Source: a virus
Length of the DNA stretch: 23,546 nt
IMG/VR virus record: IMGVR_UViG_3300027754_000446
Span: 1 to 23,546 of that record
Strand: one strand, 5' to 3'
The notes under the pieces are model-generated. The model was not told where the DNA came from. It made no database searches and saw nothing but the letters and a program-made list of their open reading frames with translations. The position numbers and the translations under genes were made by a program. Positions 5,166-11,538 of this stretch are shown here, in pieces. Each line of letters starts with the position of its first letter. Positions within the stretch are counted from its first letter, which is position 1.

Positions 5166-5331
5166 TTTTCTTTTCTGGCCTCCGCTTCATAGCCTCGGCC
5201 AGCTTTTTACCCTTATCCGCCTGGTTAAAGTCTTTGGCCACAGAAACCGGCACGCCAACCCGTTTCGCAAACTTCGGATCGTGCGCGGCCGCGGCCATCA
5301 TGCGAGCTTGAGCTGGTGAGCTGGAAGGCAT
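5158..5331 (-). CDS. Small phage protein of the MPSxSxAQARxMAAAAH type
   Basis: 57 residues, translated by me from the ATG at 5331 to TAA at 5158-5160. It starts MPSSSPAQARMMAAAAHDP, then FAKRVGVPVSVAKDFNQADKG, a pattern seen in a widespread family of very short phage proteins located near terminase genes. The function is unknown. It overlaps the TerS candidate by 8 bases and the upstream DUF5856-like gene by one base (TAATG), so it is a coupled member of this operon. It is missed by a simple length cut-off, but the sequence pattern and exact fit into the gap make it convincing. Confidence 0.8.
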   Translation of the reverse strand: MPSSSPAQARMMAAAAHDPKFAKRVGVPVSVAKDFNQADKGKKLAEAMKRRPEKKNG

Positions 5332-5696
5332 TATTTCAACACCTTTAACTTATAGATCGTCGAATCAATCAGCTCGCACGCCTCATCAATAATGTTTTGC
5401 AGCTGCGTATCGTCCGGTAACACCTTGCGGATCGAGTCCACAAAGTCTTTGATCTGTTCCAGATATTTCAGCGGCGACTTGGCAATATGAAAGTCGGCCG
5501 GATAAGTTTCGATTATCGAATAACAGCCTTGAAACGCCTCGGCCCAGCGGTCCACAATGTCGATCACGTTCTCGTAGTATTTTTGAAGCGCTTTGTGCTC
5601 GCTATAACTTTTCGTCTGCAAGTGCATGAAATGAGCGTTCGTGCCGCTATGAAACAGCACACTGACAAACAGCGCGGCGTTCTTCTGATAGTCCAC
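5331..5696 (-). CDS. DUF5856-like phage protein (helical, ferritin/Dps-like architecture)
   Basis: 121 residues, all-helical in appearance. The segment HFMHLQTKSYSEHKALQKYY followed by WAEAFQG resembles the DUF5856 family known from several phages, whose His/Glu-rich helices recall ferritin-like four-helix bundles. A metal-binding role is only an inference. The start is a GTG at 5694-5696; AAAGGG lies a few bases upstream. Another open frame (5564-5860) overlaps the first 133 bases, which is unusual. Followed by a one-base overlap with the next gene. Confidence 0.75.
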   Translation of the reverse strand: MDYQKNAALFVSVLFHSGTNAHFMHLQTKSYSEHKALQKYYENVIDIVDRWAEAFQGCYSIIETYPADFHIAKSPLKYLEQIKDFVDSIRKVLPDDTQLQNIIDEACELIDSTIYKLKVLK

Positions 5697-6615: not shown

Positions 6616-8715
6616 TTAATTACCCTCCTTTTGGTCGTTTTCGTCTTGCATTGGCGCACTTCCGGCCACAAAAACCTCTCTCAATTTCCGGTCTTTGGTC
6701 TTAAATGTTGATCTATAAATGCTTCCTTCGGCCTGCATTTCGGCCAACAAATCCATCAGATCGGATGACGATTTAACGCTTTTGGGAAACCCTGACCGCT
6801 TGCTCAAAAGGTGCCAAACAGAGAAACCGCCGGTATTGGATGTGGTGACCATTTCGCCGCGATTATTAAAATCTTTAATCATGCCGGCCAGTATGCCCTT
6901 TGCCAGATTTGCGGATTTCCGGCGTTCGGCGGCAATAATTGCGGCATTAGCAGCGGCGCCGGAATCAGTAAAACTGCCATCTTCAAGCGGCACGCCGTCG
7001 TGCCAGCGCAGGCGCACTGTCTTTGCACGCGGTCCTAAATTGGCCTTTTGGTGCTCAATGGTCAGGCAATCCTCGTCCTTTTCGACGTTGAGAGACAGGC
7101 GCGAGCGCACAGAATTGTGCCAAGCGGTCGAACCGGAATAATCTTCCCGACCGGCATCCCGACCGTTGATCGCCGACACCTTATTGACGTGCGCCAGTAG
7201 CAGCACAGCGCGCTCTGGTCGGGCAATGCGTGACCGTAGAGAGCGCACAAACTGCCGCACCCGGGCGCGTTTAATTTCGTCATCGTCAAAAGTGTCGCTG
7301 GCATTGTCGACCACCACCAGACCGATATTGCGCTTGGCGACCAGCTCGGACAGGGCGCCAAGCAGCTTGGTTTCGGTCACGCCGCGGTTGTCGCGGTGCA
7401 GTGCAGGATCTATATCAGATGCGTCTAGCAACAGCAATTTGCCTTCCAAATCGGTCGGCGCCACAGAAAGCGCTTTGCATAGGCTGTGGAAACGCCGCAG
7501 AACAACCTGTGCGCCGTCCTCGCCGCTAAAGAATAGGACAGGTGCGGCAATGGTCGGCAAACCGCAGAAAGTGCGTCCTAGCGCGACATGAATCGCCAGC
7601 GACATGGCAACATAAGATTTACCACTGCCGCCGTGACCGGCCAGCAAAGTGACTTCGTTGTGCGGAATCCAGCGATCGACGAAATGGGGTATTGCCGTAA
7701 ATGGATCGGCAAATGCGTCAAAAGACAGTAATTGTTTTTCGAGATCGGAAATTGTGACTTCTGGTTCTGGTGTGCTTGATGCAGAGCTGGTGCCGGCCAT
7801 AGGATTCTTCCACCCCGCAGCCTGGGCGCGAGAAAATAAGGTTTTGATCGTCACGCCGGCGGCTCGATTGGTCGAAAACGATAACCATTTTGCCCGCTGC
7901 ACCTTGTGGTCAAACTTCCCCGACCGGCCTGACCAATCCACCCAGACCTGATATGCGAGATCGCCCAGGCCGGTCGCGTGTAGCGCCATGCCTGCCTCGA
8001 TCCACTGGTGATAGTCCTCGGCATCCAGAAACGCCAGTGCGTCTGCGGCCTCTGCGAGTTGTGCCGGCAGTGTGTAATTGCCCAAGTTGGGTGAGCTGGG
8101 CCCCCCCGCTTCCGCTGCCGGTTCCATCAACATGCGTTCCAGCCAAACAGGTGCGCGTGCCGGGGTGAATCCGGCCAACAGATCCAGTCCATCATCCCAA
8201 GCATACCGGCGCCCCGAATGATGGATAGAAGGCTCGGCCACGATATAGCCGTTGGCCTTGACATCAATCCCCTGCGCCAGCTTGCCACGGCAGCGTTTGA
8301 CGGCCGCGGTGTCGATCCTGACTAGATAGTGCCACCCGTTACCGCTGCGCTGTGTGGGAGTCTCTGGTAGCGCCCCGTTAGCCTGTATGAGCGCCTCCCA
8401 GCTCAGGTGACCGTTATTGCGCGTGTCCACATCGAGCGCCACGCAACCCGCGTCACCCATCGCCAGCCCGATATTGGCGGTCGGCCACTTGGACCACCAG
8501 CCGCGGATCGTCATTTCGTCGCTGCTGGCCTCAGTCGCGCCGTGTGCGGTCAGCGGATGTTTACCAAGCGAGCGACAATCAGAGTCACCGCAGGTGCAGC
8601 CGCCCTGCCGTATGCTATTTAGCGGTAACACGCGAAATCCCCGCAGCGCGTATTTCAGTGCCGCATCCAGTAAGACCTTCGGATGCAGCTCGACTACAGA
8701 ATCATTCTCAACCAT
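6616..8715 (-). CDS. Bifunctional primase-polymerase / RepA-like helicase
   Basis: 699 residues from the ATG at 8715, preceded by GGGGG and 10 bases downstream of the previous stop. An upstream in-frame start (8847) would overlap the zinc-ribbon gene and is rejected. Residues 15-195 form a PrimPol (prim-pol) domain: D95/D97 in ALDVDTR, H129 in GNGWHYL and D151 in QGIDVK. An early Cys cluster CTCGDSDC (40-47) precedes GKHP. Residues 220-300 resemble PriCT_2 (WVDWSGRSGKFD). Residues 340-570 are a RecA-like AAA_25/RepA helicase: Walker A GHGGSGKS (360-367), Walker B GLVVVD (465-470), then LLLAHVNK. It probably primes and unwinds DNA at the phage origin. The repeat array follows immediately. Confidence 0.9.
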   Translation of the reverse strand: MVENDSVVELHPKVLLDAALKYALRGFRVLPLNSIRQGGCTCGDSDCRSLGKHPLTAHGATEASSDEMTIRGWWSKWPTANIGLAMGDAGCVALDVDTRNNGHLSWEALIQANGALPETPTQRSGNGWHYLVRIDTAAVKRCRGKLAQGIDVKANGYIVAEPSIHHSGRRYAWDDGLDLLAGFTPARAPVWLERMLMEPAAEAGGPSSPNLGNYTLPAQLAEAADALAFLDAEDYHQWIEAGMALHATGLGDLAYQVWVDWSGRSGKFDHKVQRAKWLSFSTNRAAGVTIKTLFSRAQAAGWKNPMAGTSSASSTPEPEVTISDLEKQLLSFDAFADPFTAIPHFVDRWIPHNEVTLLAGHGGSGKSYVAMSLAIHVALGRTFCGLPTIAAPVLFFSGEDGAQVVLRRFHSLCKALSVAPTDLEGKLLLLDASDIDPALHRDNRGVTETKLLGALSELVAKRNIGLVVVDNASDTFDDDEIKRARVRQFVRSLRSRIARPERAVLLLAHVNKVSAINGRDAGREDYSGSTAWHNSVRSRLSLNVEKDEDCLTIEHQKANLGPRAKTVRLRWHDGVPLEDGSFTDSGAAANAAIIAAERRKSANLAKGILAGMIKDFNNRGEMVTTSNTGGFSVWHLLSKRSGFPKSVKSSSDLMDLLAEMQAEGSIYRSTFKTKDRKLREVFVAGSAPMQDENDQKEGN

Positions 8716-8725
8716 GGTGCACCCC

Positions 8726-8920
8726 CTATAATTCCTGCGTCCGATAATAGACCTTGCCAGCAATCTGCCCGCTGCCACTGGTTGATTTGCGCTTGTAAGT
8801 CTTGCGGCAGTCCTTGCACACAAAACTCTGCCCAGCCGCCCGTTCAATTGTTTGAAAGCCCTTACCGCCGCAAAAAGAACAGGTCATGTCCGGTGGCCTG
8901 ATTACCCTTTTTACGTTCAT
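8726..8920 (-). CDS. Small zinc-ribbon protein
   Basis: 64 residues from the ATG at 8920; GAGGG upstream and an ATGA overlap with the HTH gene support this start over the longer frame beginning at 8965. CSFC and CKDC, 17 residues apart, form a classic zinc ribbon. The C-terminus is basic (RKTYKRKSTSGSG), suggesting nucleic-acid contact. It directly precedes the primase-helicase, whose own Cys cluster is short, so a helper role in priming is conceivable but unproven. Confidence 0.75.
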   Translation of the reverse strand: MNVKRVIRPPDMTCSFCGGKGFQTIERAAGQSFVCKDCRKTYKRKSTSGSGQIAGKVYYRTQEL

Positions 8921-9089: not shown

Positions 9090-9542
9090 TCATCTAATGG
9101 CTTTGGATATTTTTTCCAGTTTTCCGTTGGCTTCAAGTTCTACCAGAGTATTCATCGCTTTTGCTGTGCGCTCCAACAAATCAACGTATCGTTGCAAATT
9201 ATCAAAATTAGCAGCTTTTTCTATTCGGTTGAGAGCTTGCCCTAATTTTTCACTTGAATCGCGCACGTTGCCAGCGGCGCGTTTTGTTTGATCGGAAAAA
9301 TTAATCTGAGTTTTTAAGAATTTTTCTAAAACTTGATTGAATCCATCAGTGACTTTTTCCACAGCCACAATTGCATTATTAGCATCTGTTGTCATTGTTT
9401 TTGACATCCTATAAAAGTAATCATTGTTATTTATAAATCCAACAATCGTTTTATTACAATCTTCCCTTGAATAAAGAGGGCCGTGTTTATCGATTTTTAC
9501 TGGCTTTAAATTAAAATCAAAATAATCACCGTAAGCACTCAT
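9090..9542 (-). CDS. Unrecognised coiled-coil protein
   Basis: 150 residues. The ATG at 9542 has a strong AGGAGGGGA ribosome binding site lying inside the end of the cro-like gene and overlaps its stop (ATGA), so the longer upstream frame is rejected. The first 50 residues are mixed; residues 55-150 are helical with heptad-like spacing (VEKVTDGFNQVLEKFLKTQ, later LLERTAKAMNTLVELEANG), suggesting a coiled coil or helical bundle. No enzymatic motif or membrane segment. The gene is noticeably more AT-rich than cro and the primase gene, which hints at separate acquisition. It is the second gene of the leftward early operon. Confidence 0.75.
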   Translation of the reverse strand: MSAYGDYFDFNLKPVKIDKHGPLYSREDCNKTIVGFINNNDYFYRMSKTMTTDANNAIVAVEKVTDGFNQVLEKFLKTQINFSDQTKRAAGNVRDSSEKLGQALNRIEKAANFDNLQRYVDLLERTAKAMNTLVELEANGKLEKISKAIR

Positions 9543-9742
9543 TTCCCCTCCTTCCGGCGCCACCGCCCAGGATAGAGTGCCGGATCTACCCGCAGGCGCC
9601 CGTTCGTCAGGATCTGTAATTTGTAGGCGGCGCCCTCTGGCACCGCATCGCCCCATTTAGCCACCGCCTGGGTGCTAATCCCTAGTCGTTCGGCCAGTGC
9701 TCGGCGCCCGTCAAAGTATGTCACCGCATCGCTTGTTCGCAT
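9539..9742 (-). CDS. cro: Cro-like repressor (P22 Cro family)
   Basis: 67 residues from the ATG at 9742. The layout MRTSDAVTYFDGRRALAERL, then GISTQAVAKWG, then PEGAAYKLQILTNGRLRVDP closely follows the P22-Cro type: an HTH with Q-A-V-A-K-W in the recognition helix and an LRVDPALY tail. Cro dimers bind operators between divergent early promoters and favour the lytic course. It is the first gene leftward from the divergent control region, exactly where cro or cI genes sit. The partner repressor is not in the window: the rightward first gene (9870) has no HTH. Confidence 0.85.
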   Translation of the reverse strand: MRTSDAVTYFDGRRALAERLGISTQAVAKWGDAVPEGAAYKLQILTNGRLRVDPALYPGRWRRKEGK

Positions 9743-9757
9743 CGAATTTGAACCCCT

Positions 9758-9786
9758 ATAAAATAGTTGCAGAAAGTTGTTGACAA
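9758..9786 (-). promoter_or_regulatory. Leftward sigma70-like promoter for cro operon
   Basis: Read on the minus strand: TTGTCA (9786-9781), 17-base spacer, TTTTAT (9763-9758). The -35 matches consensus at five of six positions, the -10 at four of six. It would start transcription shortly before cro. Its -35 overlaps that of the rightward promoter almost base for base. Confidence 0.5.
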
Positions 9787-9797
9787 CCTGTTTCTGC
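9769..9797. promoter_or_regulatory. Dyad operator candidate between divergent promoters
   Basis: Outer arms GCAGAAA (9769-9775) and TTTCTGC (9791-9797) are perfect inverted repeats; inside them GTTG (9776-9779) and CAAC (9784-9787) form a second inverted repeat. The dyad spans both -35 elements, so a bound Cro or repressor dimer would block both promoters. The assignment to Cro is inference. Confidence 0.6.
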
Positions 9798-9808
9798 CCG
9801 ATTATATT
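9780..9808 (+). promoter_or_regulatory. Rightward sigma70 promoter
   Basis: TTGACA at 9780-9785, a 17-base spacer and TATATT at 9803-9808: a perfect -35 with optimal spacing and a five-of-six -10. Transcription would begin near 9815 and run into the CA-rich leader and the plus-strand early genes. Confidence 0.8.
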
Positions 9809-9850
9809 GTGAGCCATGCAGTAACGCAACAGAAGAAAACAACCGACCGA

Positions 9851-9866
9851 CCAACCGAAAGGAAAC
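9851..9866 (+). repeat. CA-rich translation leader, copy 1
   Basis: CCAACCGAAAGGAAAC, preceded by tandem ACCG/ACCA tetranucleotides from about 9841, ends four bases before the ATG at 9870. It includes the AAAGGAA ribosome binding site. An exact copy stands before the next gene. Confidence 0.75.
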
Positions 9867-9869
9867 ATC

Positions 9870-10067
9870 ATGTCCTTACAAGAAGCCACTGAAATTTCAA
9901 AAGCAGCAAAAGCCAAAGGCTACGGCACGCGCATCATGGGCGGCAAAATGCAATTTGTAGTTGTGTCTTACGCCAGAAACGGCAAAGCCACGCTGATTGC
10001 CAAATCCGAATACGTTAGCCTTGATGACACACTGGAAGTGCTCAACAGCTTACCCGTAGCAAACTAA
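9870..10067 (+). CDS. Unrecognised 65-residue early protein
   Basis: 65 residues starting MSLQEATEISKAAKAKGYG, first gene of the rightward operon. It has an N-terminal amphipathic helix followed by two short beta-like stretches (MQFVVVSYA, KATLIAKSEYV) and a final helix, an alpha-beta arrangement of a very small domain. No HTH, Cys motif or membrane segment. The AAAGGAA site in the repeated CA-rich leader places the start firmly. Early position under the strong rightward promoter suggests an accessory or host-interaction role, but nothing in the sequence defines it. Confidence 0.8.
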   Translation: MSLQEATEISKAAKAKGYGTRIMGGKMQFVVVSYARNGKATLIAKSEYVSLDDTLEVLNSLPVAN

Positions 10068-10074
10068 CAACCAA

Positions 10075-10090
10075 CCAACCGAAAGGAAAC
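10075..10090 (+). repeat. CA-rich translation leader, copy 2
   Basis: An exact 16-base copy of the leader before 9870, preceded by tandem ACCA units and ending three bases before the ATG at 10094. Confidence 0.75.
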
Positions 10091-10093
10091 AAA

Positions 10094-10279: not shown

Positions 10280-10289
10280 ACCCAACCGA

Positions 10290-10303
10290 CCAACCGAAAG
10301 GAA
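10290..10303 (+). repeat. CA-rich translation leader, copy 3
   Basis: CCAACCGAAAGGAA, 14 bases identical to copies 1 and 2, preceded by CCCAACCGA and ending five bases before the ATG at 10309. Confidence 0.75.
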
Positions 10304-10308
10304 TCACC

Positions 10309-10779: not shown

Positions 10780-11538
10780 ATGGCTATAAATTTACAGGCA
10801 ATATCACGCAACACCACGCTGCAACCGCCCCGCATCATGGTGTATGGGCCGCATGGGCTGGGCAAGACGACCTTCGGCGCCAGCGCACCGGCACCGATAT
10901 TCATCCTAACTGAGGACGGCCTGGGCCGGTTAGAAGCGGATCACTTCCCGCTAGCGACCAAGTTCTCAGATGTTCAGGATGCGCTGAAAGCATTACAGGG
11001 TGAGCACGACTTTCAGACCGTCGTCATCGACAGCCTGGACTGGCTCGACAATCTGATTTGGGAACAGATCAACACGCAATACGAAGCAAAAGACCTTGCA
11101 TACGGCAAAGGTGCGGTGATCGCTGCGGATCTCTGGCGCAAGATCCTTGATAGCCTGACCGCTTTGCGTAGCAAAGGCATGGCGTCTATCCTGCTGGCGC
11201 ACTGCGAGATCAAGCGGTTTGACTCGCCAGAAGTCGAGCCTTATGAAAGATACCAGCCCAAGCTGCAAGCCCGCAGCAGCGCCCTGGTGCAGGAATGGTG
11301 CGATGTAGTGGGCTTTGCAAACTACAAAACCATCGTGAAATCTAGCGATGTAGGCTTCAATAACAAAGTAAGCCGCGGGATCTCGACCGGCGAGCGCCTG
11401 CTCTACACCAGCGAGAAACCGGCCTACCTTGCCAAAAACCGCTACAGCCTACCCGATTCACTGCCGTTGGACTGGTCAGCACTGGCAGACGCAATGACGA
11501 CCACAACCGAAACAACCAAACAATCAAAAGGAAAATAA
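10780..11538 (+). CDS. RecA-like AAA ATPase, Sak4/AAA_24 type
   Basis: 252 residues. Walker A GPHGLGKTT lies at residues 23-31 and Walker B VVIDS at 81-85; later MASILLAHCEIKRFD fits the sensor strand of the RecA fold. This is the phage AAA_24 family, of which Sak4-type single-strand annealing/recombination ATPases are members. It lies directly upstream of a DUF669 protein and a RecB/Cas4-like exonuclease, a common phage recombination module. A GGAGG ribosome binding site precedes the ATG. The last 13 residues are Thr/Lys-rich because they are encoded by a CA-rich stretch resembling the leaders at 9851, 10075 and 10290; it ends in AAAAGGAAAA and serves the next gene. Confidence 0.85.
   Translation: MAINLQAISRNTTLQPPRIMVYGPHGLGKTTFGASAPAPIFILTEDGLGRLEADHFPLATKFSDVQDALKALQGEHDFQTVVIDSLDWLDNLIWEQINTQYEAKDLAYGKGAVIAADLWRKILDSLTALRSKGMASILLAHCEIKRFDSPEVEPYERYQPKLQARSSALVQEWCDVVGFANYKTIVKSSDVGFNNKVSRGISTGERLLYTSEKPAYLAKNRYSLPDSLPLDWSALADAMTTTTETTKQSKGK

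Follow-up and report, generated by a model that had tools for sequence, protein, structure and literature searches.

How is transcription started and controlled in an uncultured phage at a 127-bp junction (positions 9743-9869) from which two large sets of genes run in opposite directions? The window analyzed here is the entire IMG/VR record IMGVR_UViG_3300027754_000446 (23,546 bases). An initial annotation had placed in the junction two back-to-back promoters that share one -35 core inside a dyad operator, and had described the arrangement as a compact switch. The present analysis indicates that the junction is a real and sensible regulatory region, and that the leftward half of this description is probably misplaced.

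Gene Blocks around the Junction

The main ORFs to the left of 9742 are leftward and comprise cro, a 150-aa ORF, a primase, a terminase, and others. The primase (6616-8754, minus strand) has Prim-Pol and AAA_25 matches, corresponding to a primase/polymerase with an AAA ATPase domain. The main ORFs from 9870 to about 14925 are rightward, namely a number of small ORFs, Sak4, a single-strand binding protein, and a Cas4-type exonuclease. The first of them (9870-10067, plus strand) encodes 65 aa without a family match, and the Sak4-like annealing ATPase (10780-11538, plus strand) matches phrog_124 with an E value of 4.4e-46. A 490-aa ORF lies at the left end of the window. Comparison with relatives, which measure 34-36 kb, shows that the window genome is incomplete; in the relative G001, the gap between the two ends of the window is filled by ORFs on the strand of the leftward block, one of them for a major head protein. 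Named phages gave one weak DNA match to the window, with 69% identity over some 160 bases.

The first gene of the leftward block (9542-9742, minus strand) encodes the 67-aa Cro-like protein that had been noted earlier, and this assignment is confirmed by Pfam P22_Cro (PF14549), with 64.3 bits against a curated cut-off of 30.2 and an E value of 8.7e-18. A profile of seven sequences also matches the PDB entry 1rzs, "Regulatory protein cro", at E 6.4e-14.

Three further features of the blocks can be mentioned here. A near-identical leader, ACCAACCGAAAGGAA, precedes three of the first rightward genes (9840-9869, 10066-10093, and 10280-10308); by eye, it is kept before the first rightward gene in close relatives, and it is perhaps a ribosome-binding leader. 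A dyad of 11 pairs out of 14 at about 14972, between convergent block ends, is a candidate two-way terminator. Finally, an ORF at 5331-5696 (minus strand) matches phrog_858, a starvation-inducible transcriptional regulator, and DUF5856.

Rightward Promoter

The rightward promoter, TTGACA-17-TATATT (9780-9808, plus strand), is present as had been claimed, with its -35 at 9780-9785 and its -10 at 9803-9808, and it agrees with the consensus at 11 of 12 positions. Its score is 15.59 bits on a matrix of E. coli frequencies, which is used for all promoter scores below and may not fit the phage host. It is the sole plus-strand match of at least 12.5 bits across the 23.5-kb window, and when the whole 127-bp region is shuffled, this score is reached on either strand in 1 of 1000 trials. 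The promoter is retained in the eight sequences scanned.

Candidate Leftward Promoters

On the minus strand, the only match in the window of at least 11.9 bits is TTGCGT-17-TATAAT (9801-9829, -10 at 9806-9801), which scores 11.96 bits, and the top promoter-like matches of both strands of the whole record lie inside the junction. The leftward TATAAT overlaps the rightward TATATT by 4 bp on opposite strands, with predicted starts near 9794 and near 9815, about 21 bp apart. Because the best leftward -10 overlaps the rightward one, the two directions of the junction probably share a -10 in the manner of the bidirectional promoter acrR/acrAB. The pattern TTGCGY-17-TATAAT is present in all 14 sequences of the close set (the window and L002-L014, eight of them distinct), which form two clades of 96-100% and 78-83% protein identity, and the -35 bases TTGCG are invariant in the eight aligned. 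For the window, a shared -10 at 11.96 bits arises in 16 of 1000 shuffles. Among the observations that count against the shared -10 are that TTGCGT fits only three of the six consensus positions and that CAACTATTTTATA (cro strand), part of the leftward promoter proposed initially, is well conserved.

That earlier proposal, TTGTCA-17-TTTTAT (9758-9786, minus strand), is rather unlikely in our judgment. It would have the two promoters stand back to back on a shared -35 core and leave a very short cro leader. The strings themselves are present: on the minus strand, 9781-9786 read TTGTCA and 9758-9763 read TTTTAT, with 17 bp between them. They recur exactly in 12 of the 14 sequences (six of the eight distinct ones) and are lost from L005 and L008. 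The score is lower, 10.11 bits, and with the rightward hexamers held fixed some leftward match at least this good occurs in 135 of 1000 shuffles. The shared -35 geometry itself is uncommon by chance, since only 32 of 1000 such shuffles give a match of this score whose -35 is at most 3 nt away from that of the rightward promoter.

The cro leader helps to distinguish between the two candidates. AGGGG (9753-9757, minus strand), 10 nt before the ATG, is in our own reading the likely Shine-Dalgarno sequence of cro, and in all 14 sequences a run of three to four G stops 10 nt short of the start codon. The distance from TTTTAT to the ATG shifts from 15 to 16-18, while that from AGGGG stays constant in 14 of 14. 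A start from the earlier candidate is predicted at about 9751, inside the leader, which would exclude AGGGG (9757-9753) from the mRNA, whereas TTGCGT-17-TATAAT has its predicted cro start upstream of the Shine-Dalgarno sequence. On the other side, the best leftward match lies close to the cro start in L025, L102, L103, and L105, and short or absent cro leaders may occur in the family, as no Shine-Dalgarno sequence is seen upstream of cro in L102 and L105. On balance, the promoters are more likely to share their -10 than their -35.

It should also be mentioned that the segment GCAACTATTTTATA (cro strand, 9757-9770) is strongly conserved among close relatives without a clear role; perhaps it represents the -10 of the earlier candidate, or else a Cro site that has degenerated.

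Variation of the Promoter Architecture among Relatives

The promoter scan was extended to 22 representatives, and the tests of -10 overlap and of the operator motif (see below) used one representative per lineage (n = 9). L019, with no upstream DNA, was left out of the upstream comparison, and L097 was also dropped from one set. As the representatives were picked after the sequences had been viewed, the P values of both tests are somewhat favorable, and the lineages are related and thus non-independent. With this reservation, the -10 elements overlap in six of the nine lineages (P 0.026), one of the six, L111, being poor at 6.4 bits. The clearest case outside the close set is the more distant L069, where a palindromic ATTATAAT core has TTGCAA at 17 bp in the leftward and at 16 bp in the rightward direction. 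In the other three lineages, L022, L025, and L103, the leftward promoter is separate and stands closer to cro.

A shared -10 is easily obtained by chance, because the -10 is nearly palindromic: depending on the lineage, 17-38% of the shuffles have it as their top leftward match, the figure for the window being 38%. It can therefore be asked whether only the rightward promoter is real, the leftward match being a by-product of this symmetry and leftward transcription starting elsewhere or being weak. Several regions have no good leftward match, which would fit such an explanation: L111 and L112 (one lineage), the intergenic region of CGphi29 (best 7.14 bits), ct3Oc712, a named phage with the same gene order (best 8.3 bits), and 28 of the 30 distinct HTH_17-type regions, where no match of at least 11.9 bits is found. 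The low shuffle frequency of a shared -10 at the score of the window and the conserved TTGCG argue against it, and we consider this explanation distinctly unlikely. The architecture thus varies, and it is chiefly the group to which the window belongs that supports the claim of a shared -10.

Dyad and Putative Cro Operator

The imperfect 29-bp inverted repeat at 9769-9797, a putative Cro operator covering the rightward -35, is present as annotated, with 14-nt arms and 11 of 14 pairs (79%). Both promoters had been placed inside it, which is incorrect, as only the -35 elements lie inside and the -10 elements outside. Such a dyad is improbable by chance, being equaled in 11 of 2000 shuffled versions of the 127-bp region, but dyads this good number three in the window. 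Its core GTTGTCAAC is present in all 14 sequences, and the outer arms are exact in nine (the window and L002-L009) but not in L010-L014. By eye, three of seven arm pairs are changed in L010, with one change compensated, and because the changes are mostly uncompensated the arms receive little support. An RNA hairpin formed by the dyad in the cro leader was also considered and rejected, being no better than shuffles (z -0.15).

The dyad was likewise rejected as the operator of the family, because the motif enriched upstream of cro is CAA-N6-TTG and not the GCAGAAA arms. In the nine lineages, 11 copies are found where 0.78 would be expected (0 of 300 shuffles); of the twelve alternative spacings between 0 and 12, gap 1 comes out highest, with 3 against 0.8 expected (14 of 300 shuffles). 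In L022, L025, and L103 the motif occurs in pairs 17-18 bp apart, which by eye lie over the rightward -35 and spacer. Judged from this pattern, CAA-N6-TTG looks like the Cro operator of the family. It is absent from L069, and the 110 bp upstream of cro in the window contain no exact copy, nor even a five-of-six match; L011 has the motif (TCAACTTGGGTTGT) where the window retains a half-site only. Cro binding at the junction of the window is for this reason plausible at most.

Regulator Exchange and Phage Lifestyle

P22_Cro is found as one gene each in 8 of the 15 group records, the window included, and the remaining seven have an HTH_17-like gene upstream of Sak4. At the Sak4 loci of 80 of 159 relatives, 23 have a Cro relative, 43 an HTH_17-like gene, none both, and 14 neither, some of these last being truncated. 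Two HTH_17-like proteins were run through Pfam, of which one passes the cut-off of 27 (34.3 bits) and one fails (21.9 bits). Among L034-L113, the divergent regulator upstream of Sak4 thus swaps between P22_Cro and a small HTH_17-like protein. At some Sak4 loci the next ORF is, judged by a motif, a putative C5 DNA methyltransferase.

A check for CI-like and integrase genes agrees with the claim that only a Cro-like regulator is visible: Phage_integrase, Resolvase, Peptidase_S24, and AAA_31, the last of which we take to stand for ParA-type proteins, each match in none of the 15 group records, of which the window record is itself incomplete, and the S24 search would miss repressors without an S24 domain. 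HTH_3 matches in three of the 15, all below the cut-off. One of the records, G002, is probably a complete genome, as it carries a 127-bp terminal repeat.

In lambda, CI is the maintenance repressor. A true lysis-lysogeny switch, with Cro in the place of CI, would fit the divergence of cro from the rightward early block, but given the lack of integrase, S24, and AAA_31 matches it is very improbable. In addition, 58 pattern matches to the window's Cro in bacterial genome contigs gave none confirmed, although distant relatives may escape this search. Hence a compact arrangement with Cro as its only regulator is reasonable, but not as a lysogeny switch; the junction looks more like a device for early/late timing, most likely an early/late timer with Cro autorepression in a lytic phage. 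Some caution as to the lytic reading comes from the CGphi29 paper, the available text of which leaves open whether that phage is lytic or temperate.

Proposed Mechanism

We propose the following sequence of events. RNA polymerase would take either the strong rightward promoter, leading to the small ORFs, Sak4, the single-strand binding protein, and the exonuclease, or the weaker leftward promoter, leading to cro, the primase, packaging, and further genes. The shared ATTATATT core of the -10 would leave room for one polymerase at a time, and the rightward promoter would dominate first. As Cro accumulates, it would occupy half-sites that cover the rightward -35 and the region of the leftward start, so that the early genes would be switched off and Cro would curb its own production.

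Of this, the presence and conservation of the sequence elements, the family assignment of Cro, and the order of the genes are established. The whole reading built on them, in which a lytic phage uses a bidirectional promoter whose two directions share a -10, fires rightward first, and is then shut off by Cro, is the one we favor, with some confidence. A wider and more tentative possibility is that the near-palindromic -10 is the hub of the two blocks, where polymerase competition and Cro autorepression replace CI/Cro as an early-to-late timer, and that the lineage repeatedly re-engineers this hub, with the leftward promoter sharing the -10 or standing separate and with Cro swapped for an HTH_17-like regulator.

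Bidirectional promoters are newly recognized, and in the available text of Warman et al. 2026 (PMC12825309) they are described as hardly studied. If our reading is correct, the junction would offer a natural setting of minimal size in which to test how polymerases compete, with two main blocks on one -10 and a single small repressor, for which natural variants (shared, separate, and regulator swapped) are available for comparison. Among the literature matches listed, as titles and beginnings of abstracts, we recognized no report in which a Cro protein controls a shared -10.

Comparison with Known Systems

One close arrangement is that of Salicola phage CGphi29 (NC_020844), in which a Cro relative (46% identity) followed by the primase is divergent from Sak4; it differs in its intergenic region, which has no clear leftward promoter. 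The immunity region of P22 and lambda is related through the P22_Cro family, but in the window cro points in the direction opposite to the early block, and searches for an S24-type CI and for an integrase gave no match.

The Pr/Pc promoters of pLS20, as far as described in the text available (PMC4207663), are similar in being divergent, overlapping, and of unequal strength, with an Xre-type regulator, RcoLS20, repressing the strong one. In that system, however, the -10 of one promoter and the -35 of the other occupy the same position in the authors' favored reading, and looping and self-activation take part.

Bidirectional promoters are defined by starts 7-25 bp apart with an optimum at 18 (PMC10268837, available text); the predicted distance of about 21 bp falls within this range, off the optimum. 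According to the accessible part of PMC12825309, a shared -10 excludes two polymerases, and five E. coli bidirectional promoters show no competition at basal levels, but only with one strong direction. The mutual exclusion envisaged in the initial annotation is thus reasonable, but exclusive occupancy alone makes no switch, and competition is expected at the junction because the rightward promoter is near consensus. The same text describes acrR/acrAB of E. coli as a divergent regulator and operon with overlapping -10 hexamers, both directions being repressed by AcrR. The junction resembles this system in its layout and differs from it in belonging to a phage, in its Cro-type repressor, and in having a rightward promoter near consensus.
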